A stretch of DNA of 64,000 bases, taken from Methanothermococcus okinawensis IH1 (lineage in GTDB: Archaea > AGJL01 > Methanococci > Methanococcales > Methanococcaceae). Shown piece by piece: positions 20,661-27,143 of the stretch (its first letter is position 1; every line of letters starts with the position of its first letter). Location of the stretch: positions 721,495-785,494 of the forward strand of contig NC_015636.1 in NCBI RefSeq assembly GCF_000179575.2, given 5' to 3'. The position numbers were made by a program, and so were the translations under genes. The notes below the pieces were generated by a model. It saw nothing but the letters and a program-made list of their open reading frames with translations. It was not told where the DNA came from and ran no database searches.

Positions 20661-21782
20661 TTATTCATATTTAAGAGCTTCTATAGGGTTTAACTTGGAT
20701 GCTTTATATGCAGGATATAGTGCAGATATTATAGAAATACTTATACCAATTATTACACTTTTTATTAAGATATAAATTAAATCTATCATAGGTAATATCA
20801 TACCATTGCCATAGTAATATAATACAATTTGACCAACAATTAAACTAAGTATTATACCAATTAAACTACCAACTGCCCCTAGTATTGCTGATTCATAAAG
20901 AAACAAAACTATAATGTCCATTTTAGACGCCCCAATACTTTTCATAATTCCAATCTCTTTTGTTCGTTCGATTGTTCCCATGATTGTTATATTTGCAATA
21001 CCCATTCCTGAAATTATTAAAGATATTGCACCTATTGACGATAAGAAATTAGTTATGGTATTTAGTGTAGAGCTCATAACTTTAAATAAATCTTTCATTG
21101 TTATTATCGATATTTTATTATTATTTTTGTCCATTGCTTTTTTCAATTTAAATATTGTGTTGTTGATTTTATGCTTATCATTTACAATTACTACGATATT
21201 AGAACAATTACTCCTGCCATAGAATCTATTGTATGTTTTTTGTGATAAGATAGCATCACTATATGGAATTGTTAAGTGGCATATTCCAGCAATTCTAAAA
21301 GATATATTATTTATATACACCATATCTCCTTTTTTTAGTCCATATCTTTTTGCAGTGATATTGTTAAATATGATTGATGTGTCCGTTAATTTTGGTATTT
21401 CGTTGCTTTTATCATTTTTGATGTTTTCTGATTTTTCCAATATATACATATCTCCTTTTTTAATTCCAGAGATTTTTATGTATAGTTTTGTCCCATTTCT
21501 TAAGCAAATTATGTTATCTGTGGAATATATCGGAATTGATTTATCTGATAATTTATTTATGATTTCAATATCCTTTTTTGTAAATCCTTGATTATCCAAA
21601 GATGATAAAATAAGTATATTATTAGCAAAGTTTTCATTTGAAACATTTTTATTAACACTTGTTCCAATAATTCCAAAAATGGTAACCATAAAAATTCCTA
21701 TTATAACCCCTAACACTGCCAAAGTGGTTCTTAACCTATTACTCTTTAAGTTTCTTACTGCCATTTTTAGATATATTTTCAT
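20661..21782 (-). CDS. MacB/FtsX-type ABC transporter permease
   Basis: A 373-residue permease of the MacB/LolC/FtsX type. It has an N-terminal membrane helix (LRTTLAVLGVIIGIFMVTIFGIIGTS, 18-43), a large extracytoplasmic MacB-like domain (about 44-240), and three C-terminal helices containing the FtsX signature (IERTKEIGIMKSIGASKMDIIVLFLYESAILGAVGSLIG). It ends in YPAYKASKLNPIEALKYE, the typical coupling tail. Such permeases work as mechanotransmitters or exporters of peptides and lipoproteins with a LolD/MacB ATPase, which is encoded two genes upstream. It is the last gene of the operon and a paralogue of the preceding gene, about 29 bp away. Confidence 0.88.
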   Translation of the reverse strand: MKIYLKMAVRNLKSNRLRTTLAVLGVIIGIFMVTIFGIIGTSVNKNVSNENFANNILILSSLDNQGFTKKDIEIINKLSDKSIPIYSTDNIICLRNGTKLYIKISGIKKGDMYILEKSENIKNDKSNEIPKLTDTSIIFNNITAKRYGLKKGDMVYINNISFRIAGICHLTIPYSDAILSQKTYNRFYGRSNCSNIVVIVNDKHKINNTIFKLKKAMDKNNNKISIITMKDLFKVMSSTLNTITNFLSSIGAISLIISGMGIANITIMGTIERTKEIGIMKSIGASKMDIIVLFLYESAILGAVGSLIGIILSLIVGQIVLYYYGNGMILPMIDLIYILIKSVIIGISISIISALYPAYKASKLNPIEALKYE

Positions 21783-21810
21783 AGTTATCCCAACTATCCT
21801 TACTATACAC

Positions 21811-22899
21811 TTATTTTCTAAGAGCTCCTATTGGGTTTAATTTAGATGCCTTGTATGCAGGATATATTGCCGAAATTAAAGTTAGTAATAGTCCAATGGA
21901 AATTCCATAAACGGCATATTTTAGTGCAAATAAGGGCATATCCAAGCCAATTATATATTTAACTATAATATATCCAGTAGCATAACTTACAATAGTCCCA
22001 ATAATACAACCAATTAATCCTAAAATAAATGCCTCATATAGAAATAGCATCATAATATCTTTTTTTGAAGCTCCAATACTTTTCATAATTCCAATTTCTC
22101 TTGTTCTTTCCACCACATTCATTATCATCACATTTCCTATGCAGACAGATGCTACAATTAATGAAACTCCCCCAATGGCAGACAAAAATAATGATAATTT
22201 ATCTATTATTGAAGAAAGCATGGTTAAAGAATTATACACCACTGCTTTGTTTTCTTTGTTATTTAACAATTTTATAGATTCATTTTTTATTTTCGATTTC
22301 GAATTTTTACTGGTTTTTATTATTATTTTTGAATAACCTGCATTTCCACATATTTGTTTAAATGTATTATCTGAAATAATATAATCCAACCCCAAATTAC
22401 TTAATATATTATTGTTATTCTTTAGTTTTATTATCCTTAATTTTGAATTTTTTAATTTAATATAGTCCCCATTTTTTAAACCGAGATTTTTTAGGCAATA
22501 TGAGTTTATGCCAATTGATGTATCAGATATTTCTTTATTTGTTAATTTTTTCATATTGATTTTGTTTAATCCATATACTGTTATTATCGTTTCATTTCGT
22601 CCTCTATTATATTTCATAACCTCATCGCTGGATAATATAGGAATTATTTCACAGTTGAATTTTTTAATTTCAAGTTTTTTAACATCCTTTTCTGAAAAAT
22701 AAAAATAACCTTGTTTTTTATTAGGTATTATCTCAATATATGATATTTTACCATTTTGCTCATTTAGACCATTTTTTACACTTTCCCCAATTATTCCAAA
22801 AATAGACAATGAAACTACTCCAATTACAATACCCATAAATGCTAAAAAGCTCATAAGTTTATGTCTTTTTAAATTCCTCTTAGCCATTTCAAAATACAT
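21811..22899 (-). CDS. MacB/FtsX-type ABC transporter permease (paralogue)
   Basis: A 362-residue permease with the same plan as its downstream neighbour: N-terminal helix (LMSFLAFMGIVIGVVSLSIFGIIGES), extracytoplasmic domain, and three C-terminal helices with VVERTREIGIMKSIGASKKDIMMLFLYEAFILGLIG and a C-terminal YPAYKASKLNPIGAL. I place the start at ATG 22899, one base after the ATPase stop, because GAGG precedes it at the right distance; an in-frame TTG lies 4 codons upstream. Two paralogous permeases suggest a heterodimeric channel served by one ATPase. Confidence 0.87.
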   Translation of the reverse strand: MYFEMAKRNLKRHKLMSFLAFMGIVIGVVSLSIFGIIGESVKNGLNEQNGKISYIEIIPNKKQGYFYFSEKDVKKLEIKKFNCEIIPILSSDEVMKYNRGRNETIITVYGLNKINMKKLTNKEISDTSIGINSYCLKNLGLKNGDYIKLKNSKLRIIKLKNNNNILSNLGLDYIISDNTFKQICGNAGYSKIIIKTSKNSKSKIKNESIKLLNNKENKAVVYNSLTMLSSIIDKLSLFLSAIGGVSLIVASVCIGNVMIMNVVERTREIGIMKSIGASKKDIMMLFLYEAFILGLIGCIIGTIVSYATGYIIVKYIIGLDMPLFALKYAVYGISIGLLLTLISAIYPAYKASKLNPIGALRK

Positions 22900-22900
22900 A

Positions 22901-23578
22901 TTATTCCTCAACTAATTCTCCATCCCTAATATTTATTATCCTATCGGCAACCTTTCCAACATTTATATCGTGGGTAACCATAACAACCGTTTTTCCAGAT
23001 TTGTTTAATTTTTTTAGGAGCTCCATAATTTTAGCACCAGTCTTTGAATCCAATGACCCTGTTGGTTCATCGCATAATAAAATAGGTGGGTCATTTGCAA
23101 GAGCTCGTGCTATTGCCACCCTCTGTTGCTGACCCCCACTTAATTGATTGGGTTTGTGATTTGCAAATTTTTCATCCAATTCAGCCATTTTTAAACATTC
23201 CAATGCTCTTTTTCGTTTTTCTTCCGAGCTCATATTACTTCGATATTTAAATATTAGGGGGAGCTCTACATTTTCTAATGCACTCAACAATGGAATAAGA
23301 TTAAACTGTTGAAATACAAATCCAATTTTCATTCTCCTAATTTCCGTTAATTGGTTATCGTTTAAATCACTTGCTTTTACACTATCTATATATACCTCTC
23401 CATTATCTGGTCTATCCAAACAACCAATAATATTTAAAAGTGTAGATTTCCCACTTCCACTTGGTCCCATAATTGAGACAAATTCTCCCTCTTCTATTCT
23501 TAGATTTACATTATTTAGTGCGTATATTACTTCTTCCCCCATTTTGTAGGATTTTACAACATTTTTTAATATAATCAT
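22901..23578 (-). CDS. LolD/MacB-type ABC transporter ATPase
   Basis: A 225-residue ABC ATPase with all motifs: Walker A GPSGSGKST near 38, Q-loop VFQQFNLIP near 88, signature LSGGQQQRVAIARAL near 143, Walker B ILLCDEPTGSLD near 163 and the switch His in VMVTHDINVG near 198. It belongs to the LolD/MacB group whose structural model is M. jannaschii MJ0796, and probably is its orthologue. It energises the two FtsX-type permeases encoded immediately downstream. The ATG follows GGGGAATT. Confidence 0.93.
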   Translation of the reverse strand: MIILKNVVKSYKMGEEVIYALNNVNLRIEEGEFVSIMGPSGSGKSTLLNIIGCLDRPDNGEVYIDSVKASDLNDNQLTEIRRMKIGFVFQQFNLIPLLSALENVELPLIFKYRSNMSSEEKRKRALECLKMAELDEKFANHKPNQLSGGQQQRVAIARALANDPPILLCDEPTGSLDSKTGAKIMELLKKLNKSGKTVVMVTHDINVGKVADRIINIRDGELVEE

Positions 23579-23599
23579 AATTCCCCTTTATTATTATTT

Positions 23600-25114
23600 T
23601 TATTCCTTTTTTCTTATAAATCCCCTATAAATTAAATAAATCACTCCAATACAAAATAAAAGACCTATTCCAATAACTGCATAATTAATTCCCTCTTTTT
23701 TTCCATTATAATCATTATACGATACTACCTGACCATTATCTATTTTTATCTCCTTGTTTATTGTTATTAAATTGTTGTTTTCATCCCTGTATGTAATTAC
23801 AATTGGAATTTCACTTACATTTCCATTTATCACACAGTGCAATTCAAAACTTCCATAATCATCTGCATTTAATGTTCCTACAAAATAATTTTCGTATGGT
23901 CTTTTTGGGATAATATTCTTTGTTCTTTTAATGCTAACCAATACACTTTTTGCCTTGGTAGTTCCTATATTGGATAAATCCCCAGTAATTGTTTTTTCGG
24001 TTATTCCCTCTATATTTATTCCAGTTAAAACTAAATCAGCCCTTCCTATAACATTTACAGAGATATTTTTATCCACTTCATTTCCATCAAAAATTATTTT
24101 TATGGGGATTTCTTTAACTCCTATCTCATTTACCTTTATTTTAAATGAAACATTTTTGGTTTTTCCATAAGGTATAAAGATAGTTTTTTGATTATTTCCT
24201 AAATAATATTTTTCAATAGATATAATAAAATTAGCATCCTTGTAATTGTTTTTTAGGGATAATGTGAAATTATTCACCTCTCCAACGGGATAAGTGTAGT
24301 TAATTACATTTAAATCAACGGCATTATCTGGAATTACTTTAAATACTAAATTTCCTTTCTCTTCAACAATTTTTTGATTTTTGTAGTTGTATGTGATTGT
24401 ATTGGAATGCCCCTGTTCTGTTTCTGTTTTATCCATTAGTTGTAAATTATCATATGGATTATTATATGTTAGTTCATAGGGTAGTTTTAAAATACCATCT
24501 CCACTTGCATAAATTTTAATCTCCATCAATTTTGTTTGGTGTGGTTTTAAGCCGTCTATATAACCCTCCGATAATGAAAAAATATTACTATTATCGTTGT
24601 TAAATTGCATCTTTATGTTTTTTGCTACCCCTGTTCCCTCATTTGTTATTTTTAAATAGATGGTATTTTCGCCTTCTTTTATTGTTGGTGGATTTTCAAT
24701 TGTAAGTATTGGTTTTCCCCTAATTGGAATAGTAAATATTCTATTTTCTGAATGTTGTTTATTATCCTCTGTATAGTTGCAATATGCCACAATTTTATAG
24801 TCCTTTGACGGAGTATTATCTTTAATTTTTATTATAAAATGACCTACTCCTTTTTCAGATGGAAATAATTGCCCCTCATAATCCTTTCCTTTAATTATTT
24901 GTATGTAATTCTTACTTTCCCCATAAGGATATATGCCTATTACGGTGTTGTTTATCTCCTTTTCTGGTGTGATTACCACCCATAAATCATAGGTCTTTGA
25001 TGGTTCCAAATATTGATTTTTATAGTCAATGCTTGTAAATTCCACTGCATCTATTGTGTTTAAAATTAAAAATAAAGATAAGATAGATAAAAAAATAAAA
25101 AAGGATTTTTTCAT
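23600..25114 (-). CDS. Secreted, membrane-anchored beta-sandwich (CARDB/NEW3-like) protein
   Basis: A 504-residue protein with a signal peptide (KSFFIFLSILSLFLILNTIDA, 3-23), an extracytoplasmic region of about 440 residues made of repeated beta-sandwich-like units (e.g. ENTIYLKITNEGTGVAKNIKMQFNND and VNNFTLSLKNNYKDANFIISIEKY), and one C-terminal membrane helix (AVIGIGLLFCIGVIYLIYRGFI) with a basic stop. The units look like CARDB or NEW3-type domains. In the operon it could be the extracytoplasmic adaptor, a MacA-like role, passing substrate to or from the ABC permeases; that is inference. It starts 4 bp after the previous gene and ends 21 bp before the ATPase. Confidence 0.75.
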   Translation of the reverse strand: MKKSFFIFLSILSLFLILNTIDAVEFTSIDYKNQYLEPSKTYDLWVVITPEKEINNTVIGIYPYGESKNYIQIIKGKDYEGQLFPSEKGVGHFIIKIKDNTPSKDYKIVAYCNYTEDNKQHSENRIFTIPIRGKPILTIENPPTIKEGENTIYLKITNEGTGVAKNIKMQFNNDNSNIFSLSEGYIDGLKPHQTKLMEIKIYASGDGILKLPYELTYNNPYDNLQLMDKTETEQGHSNTITYNYKNQKIVEEKGNLVFKVIPDNAVDLNVINYTYPVGEVNNFTLSLKNNYKDANFIISIEKYYLGNNQKTIFIPYGKTKNVSFKIKVNEIGVKEIPIKIIFDGNEVDKNISVNVIGRADLVLTGINIEGITEKTITGDLSNIGTTKAKSVLVSIKRTKNIIPKRPYENYFVGTLNADDYGSFELHCVINGNVSEIPIVITYRDENNNLITINKEIKIDNGQVVSYNDYNGKKEGINYAVIGIGLLFCIGVIYLIYRGFIRKKE

Positions 25115-25118
25115 TATT

Positions 25119-25649
25119 TCACCTTATAGTATATAATACTAAATTAATTATACCAACCACTATCGCTAGAATTAGTGATTTGTTAAATTTTAGAGAATAG
25201 GTATATTGAATGCCTTTTGCCCATATTAAGCATGCCCATATTGTAAATATAATATATATTAAATAATTCAGCCATTGAGGCATTGGTGAACCCCCATTTA
25301 TATAATTCAACATATCTATTATGATATCACTAAATGCTGTTATTATGTAACCATATGCAATAATTTCAAATATCTTTTTAAATGAAATATCTTTTAATTT
25401 TGTAACATATAATAATACATCTATTATCATTGTATCTAACAATATAAGTAATAATAACACCATAATTGAAATAATTACAACGATTATTGTTGTTGTAGGT
25501 TGGCAATTTCCTTTAAGGGTAAGTAGGGATAACGCAGATGCAAATGTATTTAATAATATTGCAATTAATGGGACATAACGATTATAAGGTCTAACCCCTA
25601 CATTTTGAAAGAATTTATCTGGATTTATTATTAAATCTATTATCTTCAT
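25119..25649 (-). CDS. Yip1-like polytopic membrane protein
   Basis: A 176-residue protein beginning MKIIDLIINPDKFFQNVGVRPY, the amphipathic lead-in of Yip1/DUF1282-type proteins, followed by five likely membrane helices (around 28-45, 52-76, 92-115, 128-144 and 155-174). Function in archaea is unknown. It lies between the SpoIIM-like gene (16-bp gap) and the large secreted protein (4-bp gap), so it is part of the same exporter operon. The ATG follows GAGGT. Confidence 0.7.
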   Translation of the reverse strand: MKIIDLIINPDKFFQNVGVRPYNRYVPLIAILLNTFASALSLLTLKGNCQPTTTIIVVIISIMVLLLLILLDTMIIDVLLYVTKLKDISFKKIFEIIAYGYIITAFSDIIIDMLNYINGGSPMPQWLNYLIYIIFTIWACLIWAKGIQYTYSLKFNKSLILAIVVGIINLVLYTIR

Positions 25650-25665
25650 GGTATACCTCAGTTAT

Positions 25666-26220
25666 TTATGTTAATGACAGCAATGTTGGTGTTATATATG
25701 CTTCTATAAATGCGGCTATTATAATTAATGATAATGAAAGTAGGGACATGCAAAAAATTTCACAAATGTCTTCTTTTGTCATTAATTTTTCTTTTTTATC
25801 CAATAGATATAATATTAGGTTAGATGGTATTTTTAACCCTACTGCACCAGCTAAAATAAATCCTGCAAATTCCAATATACCATGTGGAAGAATACCTGCA
25901 ATAATATATGTTATTTTTGTTCCAGAAGCGATAAATGATACATAAAATCCATTTATAAACAATAGATAAATATCCAATATGCCAAATACTAACACACCAG
26001 ATATGAGTTTTATATATACCGTAATGTTATTATATAATATATCCCAAAAAGATAATGTTGTTAACGAATTCAAATGCATATAATTGATAGATGATTCGTT
26101 TATTGGAAAATTGTGGGATGATGATATATATAATACATGCCCCATAAATATTCCGAAGGTAAAACTTAATATTGCGATAATAATTGGAATTGAAACTTTA
26201 TATTTACCATATATGTCCAT
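25666..26220 (-). CDS. SpoIIM/DUF95 family membrane protein
   Basis: A 184-residue polytopic membrane protein with about five helices. The pattern FWDILYNNITVYIKLISGVLVFGILDIYLLFINGFYVSFI ... ILPHGILEFAGFILAGAVGLKI is characteristic of the SpoIIM/DUF95 family (the PHG/E-x3 turn is the family hallmark). Members of this family are found in sporulating bacteria and, relevantly, in circular-bacteriocin clusters, where a DUF95 protein is needed for production and immunity. Here it directly follows the small secreted peptide gene (48-bp gap), which is the basis for the system proposed under findings. Confidence 0.82.
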   Translation of the reverse strand: MDIYGKYKVSIPIIIAILSFTFGIFMGHVLYISSSHNFPINESSINYMHLNSLTTLSFWDILYNNITVYIKLISGVLVFGILDIYLLFINGFYVSFIASGTKITYIIAGILPHGILEFAGFILAGAVGLKIPSNLILYLLDKKEKLMTKEDICEIFCMSLLSLSLIIIAAFIEAYITPTLLSLT

Positions 26221-26268
26221 ATTTTTACCCTTGCCTCTAAAAAATAAAAAATAAAAACTAAAATATTT

Positions 26269-26610
26269 TTACCATATTAGTGCATTTATGGATGGGTTCC
26301 ATATATATGAAATATATTTTGCTGCCATAGATATAATTCTCCCGTATTTTGTTGGGAGTTTTGCTTTTGATATATCATTTAGTGTTTTATAGCCCTCTTC
26401 TTTTAAATATTTTAAGAAATCTATAACTGCAAGTCCCGTGTCCATATCTACATATCCCTTAGCAATTAATATGTATATTGCATCCCCTGTATCTTTGGAT
26501 ATAGTTGATACAGATGTTTCGCTTGAAATACTTGCAGGTGTAGCAAATACCGCTCCTACCATACATAGCATAGCCACAGCAGCGAAACCTTTAAGTATAT
26601 TTAAGTTCAT
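26269..26610 (-). CDS. Small secreted peptide precursor ending in NALIW, bacteriocin-like candidate
   Basis: A 113-residue precursor with a strong signal-like N-terminus (basic K7, hydrophobic FAAVAMLCMVGAVFA to about residue 23, then TPAS). The remaining 90 residues are mostly helical with two hydrophobic stretches (AIYILIAKGYVDMDTGLAVIDFL and RIISMAAKYISYIW) and end PSINALIW. The mature parts of the circular bacteriocins AS-48 (VIAW) and uberolysin (AVIW) end similarly with a Trp used in head-to-tail closure. The ribosome-binding site AGGAGGTGA is the strongest in the operon, consistent with an abundant product. It heads the DUF95-Yip1-adaptor-ABC operon. Alternatives are a structural or signalling peptide; no homologue with known function is recognised. 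Confidence 0.55.
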   Translation of the reverse strand: MNLNILKGFAAVAMLCMVGAVFATPASISSETSVSTISKDTGDAIYILIAKGYVDMDTGLAVIDFLKYLKEEGYKTLNDISKAKLPTKYGRIISMAAKYISYIWNPSINALIW

Positions 26611-26654
26611 GGTTTATTCACCTCCTTTAATTTTAAGGGAGTAATTTTCTCTAA

Positions 26655-26727
26655 GGCTCAGAACCCTTTGGGTTTATCATCGCCAAGGTCGGCTCCGAAT
26701 AGTTCCCACCTATTCATCATCGCCGAC
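26655..26727 (-). ncRNA. Structured leader with two tandem K-turn (box C/D-like) hairpins
   Basis: On the minus strand two hairpins follow each other. Hairpin A (26727-26688): stem GUCGGC/GCCGAC, internal loop GAUGAU opposite GGA, upper stem GAAUAG/CUAUUC. Hairpin B (26684-26655): stem GGC/GCC, internal loop GAUGAUA opposite CUGA, upper stem AACCC/GGGUU with an AAA loop. The GAUGA/CUGA internal loops match K-turn or box C/D motifs, which bind L7Ae in archaea. The island is far richer in G+C than its surroundings and ends 45 nt before the peptide gene start, so it is most simply a 5'-UTR regulatory element; a free-standing C/D sRNA is the alternative. Confidence 0.6.
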
Positions 26728-26829
26728 TTTTCATTTTTTCTTCAATGTTTTTAAACAATCATTTAATAATGTTTTTAATATCGTAATTAATTTTTACTTT
26801 TTTCGTAATTATTATATATGCAAAACTCC

Positions 26830-26857
26830 TATATATATATATATATATATATATATT
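26830..26857. repeat. (TA)14 dinucleotide repeat
   Basis: Fourteen uninterrupted TA units in the divergent spacer upstream of the peptide operon. A perfect repeat this long is prone to slippage and could vary in length between strains. Confidence 0.9.
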
Positions 26858-27143
26858 ATGATTTAAATTAAATAGAAAAGTATTTAAAATAAGTTTAATT
26901 TATGAAATTTTGTCAATTGATATTTTTATTAATTAAAATACATAAAATTAATTTAAAATGAGAAATAACCAAACCAGAGCTCCTATTAAATATAACCAAA
27001 GACGAAATTTTATGACCCTTAACTATTTAAGATTATAATTATAATCAAATATTATATTATATGATTAGATAGGACATATTAAATTAGTAATTTCATTAGT
27101 TCTGTCTGAACTATATATAATAAACTATATAATAGGGCATATT

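Follow-up and report, generated by a model that had tools for sequence, protein, structure and literature searches.

A candidate bacteriocin-like secreted-peptide operon with a kink-turn RNA leader in Methanothermococcus okinawensis, and its paralogous cassette array

We analysed a stretch of 64,000 nucleotides (nt) from Methanothermococcus okinawensis IH1 (NC_015636.1, positions 721,495 to 785,494; hereafter the window, whose own numbering is used below), in which seven genes, all on the minus strand, encode in order a small secreted peptide, a SpoIIM/DUF95 protein, a Yip1 protein, a CARDB-like protein, a MacB-type ATP-binding cassette (ABC) ATPase and two FtsX permeases. An initial annotation, made from the letters alone, had described these genes as a circular-bacteriocin-like system. 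Its account of the operon itself held throughout: family profile matches recovered the seven genes on one strand with the families it had named, and the gaps, given there as 1-48 bp, measure 48, 16, 4, 21, 1 and 28 nt (the 1-nt gap being counted from the ATG at 22899 as the start of permease 1). The strong ribosome-binding site of the peptide gene (GGAGGTGA) is likewise present, as are the Sec-type signal ending VFA and the C-terminus NALIW of the peptide. The genes and their principal matches are as follows.

26269..26610, minus strand: secreted peptide precursor, 113 amino acids (aa), with a signal peptide common to its paralogues
25666..26220, minus strand: SpoIIM/DUF95 membrane protein with a putative part in maturation or immunity (PF01944, 1.4e-22)
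25119..25649, minus strand: Yip1-domain membrane protein, YknW-like (PF04893, 3.8e-13)
23600..25114, minus strand: CARDB-like protein with signal peptide and C-terminal anchor (CARDB 0.0087, below cut-off; family alignment)
22901..23578, minus strand: MacB/LolD-type ABC ATPase, MJ0796 relative (top PDB match 1F3O/1L2T, E 8e-116)
21811..22911, minus strand: MacB/FtsX-type permease 1, ATG start 22899 (FtsX 5.1e-23, MacB_PCD 3.4e-6)
20661..21782, minus strand: MacB/FtsX-type permease 2 (FtsX 2.5e-19, MacB_PCD 4.3e-10)

The precursor consists of a 23-aa signal peptide (26542-26610), with cleavage placed after VFA because an AxA-type motif stands there, and a predicted mature part of 90 aa (26272-26541). 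Its first 23-35 residues recur in related species and in six more M. okinawensis genes, which argues that the gene is real. The initial annotation had overlooked these six genes, as well as the RNA leader described below. A profile search of 36 Methanococcales genomes, a set outside which Thermococci and Archaeoglobi lie, placed the peptide family in 16 genomes from four of five genera, with none in genus g3. Signal peptides align nearly unchanged across the family; the cores are hypervariable and do not align. The 33 cores compared are 53-104 aa long and usually hydrophobic and rich in Gly and Ala, and their C-terminal residue is usually hydrophobic as well (A in 13, L in 7, W in 3). A SHOCT-like or glycine-zipper identity was considered for some cores and set aside, the matches being sub-threshold. 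A genome-wide DNA-pattern search with one degenerate motif matched a single locus.

Elsewhere in the M. okinawensis genome, an array locus (L032) holds five consecutive cassettes of the form peptide, small membrane protein, SpoIIM (one partner is without clear membrane segments) and closes with a Yip1-CARDB-ATPase-FtsX module. Similar arrays, usually with one such terminal module, occur in genomes G003, G010, G025, G027, G029, G030 and G033. Within this family the window operon is an outlier, with one peptide, no small membrane protein, a divergent Yip1 and two permeases. Across 34 cassettes, similarity between cores follows similarity between the adjacent small membrane proteins (r = 0.78), and nine cassette pairs are similar in both, where permutations gave 1.4 on average and 6 at most; the test includes cassette g16a, which was read in the wrong frame and thereby counts against linkage. 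One cassette is common to M. okinawensis and G030, from another family of the order, with 76% identity in the core, 71% in the membrane protein and 89% in SpoIIM; its signal peptides are only 39% identical, each resembling those of its own genome. Within L032, a membrane gene with no peptide of its own (L032:14038-14379) is 67% identical to a peptide-adjacent one in G016, and upstream of it lie pieces similar to other small membrane genes. This gene resembles an orphan immunity gene, and the arrays have the look of toxin-immunity loci, a putative function read from sequence. Part of the window operon is also nearly identical to the array locus.

22817..25128, minus strand: tract near-identical to the array locus by blastn, covering the CARDB gene, the ATPase gene and the start of permease 1

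This tract runs for 2312 bp at 99.44% identity, with next-best flanking matches of at most 85%; such identity (99.4%) points to a duplication or a gene conversion of recent date. In the array, the CARDB gene (L032:2028-3541; C2 ~456.0-457.5 kb) is interrupted where one base is missing from a run of A, through either genuine decay or a sequencing error, and the window copy is intact.

Array-type SpoIIM tracks the peptide. It occurs in 15 of the 16 peptide-bearing genomes and in none of the 20 others (Fisher 3e-9, a value not drawn from independent samples, since the genomes are related), the lone exception being G012, where the locus is truncated. Window SpoIIM is 45% identical to an array SpoIIM, and when compared with plasmid records it matched only five, the best-scoring bacterial one being a circular-bacteriocin locus of Priestia. 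This locus (Priestia megaterium p2, L125) encodes four uberolysin/carnocyclin-type peptides together with SpoIIM, an ATPase, a YknW-like Yip1 and an adaptor of the resistance-nodulation-division (RND) type. Another of the five, a Geobacillus plasmid locus, combines genes for SpoIIM, a YknW-like protein and an M48 peptidase with one for a hydrophobic, signal-bearing peptide that lacks annotation. Bacterial circular-bacteriocin clusters are defined by SpoIIM together with a precursor and a transporter, often with Yip1 (PMC8659200, PMC13289728). The array SpoIIM profile scores 70 bits with the Priestia and 61 bits with the Geobacillus protein, versus 37-56 bits with archaeal stand-alone SpoIIMs. 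The archaeal peptide profiles gave no significant match to the Geobacillus peptide (E 0.11). That peptide (Geobacillus lituanicus pLDW-3, L123:2350-2616) is annotated as hypothetical, is circular-bacteriocin-like and matches PF12173 weakly, with the YknW-like, SpoIIM and M48 genes downstream. A further SpoIIM, on Methanomethylovorans hollandica pMETHO01 (L124), scores 119 bits with the array profile; Yip1, small hypothetical proteins and ABC permeases are encoded nearby, and the locus is a possible related system outside Methanococcales.

Upstream of the peptide gene, the window carries a structured RNA leader preceded by a conserved DNA block.

26729..26922, minus strand: conserved upstream block with an A+T-rich, promoter-like portion and the beginning of the 5' leader (DNA 76-85% identical to that ahead of array peptide genes)
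26687..26728, minus strand: kink-turn RNA hairpin 1, GTCGGC-GAU-GAUGAAUAG...CUAUUCGGA-GCCGAC (covariance model R1, 52.9 bits)
26655..26684, minus strand: kink-turn RNA hairpin 2, GGC-GAU-GAUAAACCC...GGGUUCUGA-GCC, in tandem with hairpin 1 (minimum-free-energy fold)
26618..26644, minus strand: predicted hairpin pairing the ribosome-binding site GGAGGTGA at 26618-26625 (minimum-free-energy fold)

A MAFFT alignment of 17 upstream regions contains the conserved stretches CTATTYAATTYAAATC and AGTTTTGCAT, and the block at 26729..26922 would, on this evidence, act as a promoter. The leader element, aligned over 30 sequences, is a hairpin with a 3-nt bulge, conserved tandem G.A/A.G pairs and two helices; its inner stem carries compensatory changes. 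Of the alignment cells, 92% are paired, compared with 77% after shuffling, and covariation is 0.439 compared with 0.198. The window leader folds with z = -3.4, and the array-gene equivalents of hairpin 2 score up to 38.5 bits with R1. Strong matches to the covariance model were found solely in peptide-bearing genomes, and those that could be placed lie directly upstream of peptide genes or of genes for larger proteins with the same signal, with one exception. This leader, at C2:445699 (L031:9700-9849), is almost the same as that at C2:441095 and precedes an open reading frame (L031:9811-10173) without a canonical signal peptide; the two together are possibly a decayed copy. Pairing of the ribosome-binding site in the window is as high in 4% of shuffles, and across the family it lies weakly above shuffles (mean 0.69 versus 0.62, Wilcoxon p = 0.004). 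A C/D-box guide RNA was rejected as the identity of the element: we read it as a leader because it forms closed hairpins directly upstream of genes and because its top Rfam match, sR46, reaches 21.6 bits, far below the gathering score of 50. In archaeal mRNA leaders, binding of L7Ae to a kink-turn represses translation (PMC5539422), and the kink-turn hairpin near the ribosome-binding site here suggests translational control of the same type. The published leaders belong to ribonucleoprotein genes; here the hairpins, often tandem, precede a secreted-peptide gene family, and L7Ae binding is predicted. The larger secreted proteins that share signal peptide and leader (270-387 aa; L031:5207-6085, L038:10338-11150 and L039:2550-3713) have no assigned function; some of their genes adjoin small membrane protein genes, and DUF4870 proteins are encoded near another such gene in L041.

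The remaining genes form a putative pump module. Window Yip1 shares just 21% identity with its array counterpart and bears a resemblance to YknW, a component of the SDP-toxin pump (NCBIfam YknW_fam 1.1e-5, 25.1 bits, below the 110-bit cut-off). The CARDB-like protein sits at the usual YknX/MacA adaptor position; family profile scans returned no adaptor-family match for it and a PDB search no homologue of solved structure. Permease 1 matches MacB in the PDB (2e-23) and is 44% identical to the array permease. The structure of MJ0796 is a textbook example for ABC proteins. In G028, the homologous operon encodes an ATPase (L078:10539-11246) identical to MJ0796 (PDB 1F3O), so that G028 is most likely M. 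jannaschii, and the neighbours of this ATPase gene are a peptide gene, a small membrane protein, SpoIIM, Yip1 and a CARDB protein; the link to MJ0796/MJ0797-type genes drawn in the initial annotation is thereby borne out. In Bacillus, YknWXYZ expels the SDP toxin (PMC4887032), and orphan immunity pumps (Mr10EFGH) are also known for enterocins (PMC10598978). Like YknWXYZ, AS-48EFGH and Mr10EFGH (PMC4887032, PMC10598978), the archaeal operon combines a Yip1-type protein, an exported or anchored partner, an ATPase and a MacB-type permease, and occurs in orphan copies; it differs in its CARDB-like third component in place of a recognisable YknX/MacA adaptor and, in the window, in having two permeases.

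We consider it probable that the peptides encoded by the operon and by its array paralogue are secreted and bacteriocin-like, that they depend on SpoIIM for maturation and that the producer protects itself in the manner of YknWXYZ. The constant signal and leader, the variable cores and the circular-bacteriocin-type neighbours together indicate that the archaeon probably produces peptide weapons along with the means to withstand them. The precursor would pass through Sec and lose its signal after VFA. SpoIIM may then act in maturation, possibly head-to-tail joining, or in local immunity, as proposed for circular bacteriocins, and the mostly hydrophobic, membrane-seeking core would act on the membranes of archaeal competitors. 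The producer would be protected by the cognate small membrane protein and the MacB-type pump, which would expel the peptide from the producer's membrane; in the window operon, the part of the small membrane protein may fall to SpoIIM, the divergent Yip1 and the second permease. The leader, a likely L7Ae site near the ribosome-binding site, would tune translation.

Several observations weigh against this interpretation. The window peptide lacks a neighbouring small membrane protein, its core is only mildly hydrophobic (grand average of hydropathy 0.07), and most of the 33 cores are net anionic. Searching 19 peptides with Pfam and NCBIfam bacteriocin family profiles gave zero matches. With regard to the compact saposin-like fold of circular bacteriocins, structure models of the window peptide and one paralogue core are helical but of low confidence (predicted local distance difference test 55 and 53), and Foldseek found nothing significant with them. 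The SpoIIM profile comparison involves a small set (two bacteriocin-type and four stand-alone sequences), and the SpoIIM tree has long branches and no resolution. Homologous operons without a peptide gene, which the initial annotation had regarded as telling against its proposal, exist for the transporter module alone: four genomes carry Yip1-CARDB-ATPase(-FtsX) but neither the peptide nor SpoIIM, although enterocin immunity pumps likewise occur as orphans (PMC10598978). What survives of the original proposal is the bacteriocin-like secreted-peptide system, favoured by co-occurrence, SpoIIM profile scores and the YknW-like Yip1. Two of its supports fell away: the terminal Trp, present in the window peptide, is ruled out as a family hallmark (3 of 33 cores), and membership in known circular-bacteriocin families found no backing, with no match to TIGR03651, PF09221 or PF12173 among the 19 peptides. 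A C-terminal Trp is not universal among known circular bacteriocins.

Whether the products are true circular bacteriocins, with the core joined head to tail (T24 to W113 in the window peptide) and SpoIIM required, is a narrower form of the same interpretation that we hold as possible but doubtful. The loci share with circular-bacteriocin clusters (AS-48; uberolysin/circularin A, TIGR03651/PF09221; gassericin A, PF12173; Priestia L125) small hydrophobic precursors, a dedicated SpoIIM with sequence affinity, Yip1, an ABC pump and tandem peptide copies; the mostly hydrophobic core termini and a low-confidence, all-helical model of the window peptide with five mature helices agree with circularity. 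Set against it are the missing profile and fold matches, the rarity of terminal Trp, and cores that reach 104 aa and are mostly anionic. The archaeal loci also differ from those clusters in their conserved Sec-type signal, cores outside all models, structured RNA leader, archaeal host and a CARDB protein where the bacterial locus has an RND-type adaptor, cyclisation here being putative.

Three readings dispense with a weapon aimed at competitors. A constant leader, a variable core and a linked partner would also fit peptide pheromones whose receptors or sensors are the small membrane proteins, which we judge unlikely: the cores, of 53-104 aa, are largely hydrophobic, the cassettes revealed neither a sensor kinase nor a regulator, and the orphan membrane protein and YknW/MacB-type pump fit self-protection better. 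Clusters of SpoIIM genes were published in 2014 and 2015 by Makarova et al. as dark matter, membrane defence and membrane remodelling (PMC4158269, PMC5898192), and the arCOG01996 (SpoIIM)/arCOG02054 (Yip1)/SalXY clusters described there are very probably the same Methanococcales loci, sharing SpoIIM, Yip1, small variable membrane proteins and a SalXY-type ABC transporter. The 2015 proposal for archaeal SpoIIM/Yip1 cassettes (PMC5898192) would make the peptide a subunit or cargo of a membrane-remodelling or vesicle-forming complex, and Yip1 and SpoIIM do have membrane-shaping relatives; we find this improbable, as it leaves hypervariable secreted cores, cross-genus linkage of core and partner and peptide-free relics unexplained, and array-type SpoIIM tracks the peptide. 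The 2014 notion of membrane-associated defence, in which peptides would act inside the producer against viruses or mobile elements, draws on dark-matter-island location and high variability (PMC4158269). It is very unlikely given the Sec signal peptides, the lack of a meaningful PADLOC match among four proteins tested, and the failure to find any relative or virus-borne cassette in viral contigs.

Returning to bacteriocin-like peptides, a broader formulation remains tentative, its chances being appreciable yet short of even: that Methanococcales exchange toxin cores and immunity proteins between genera, as cassettes placed behind a constant, genome-specific promoter-like/kink-turn/signal unit, and that the resulting bacteriocins, matured by SpoIIM and possibly cyclised, constitute a regulon under L7Ae control which the MJ0796-type pump serves. 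Relative to the accessible portions of PMC4158269 and PMC5898192, the secreted peptides, core/partner linkage and RNA leader appear to be additions; a 2019 mBio review of archaeal antimicrobial peptides lies outside this comparison. If the interpretation is correct, methanogens would possess a diversified peptide-weapon system with immunity genes and the MJ0796/MJ0797 transporter would gain a role. It would also provide sequences from another domain for probing the role of SpoIIM in circular-bacteriocin maturation, and extend the known repertoire of gene regulation in archaea by a family of kink-turn RNA leaders. As a separate observation on the pump module, an array of CRISPR-resembling repeats directly precedes a peptide-free Yip1-CARDB-ATPase-FtsX module in G008 (L091:4800-8060).

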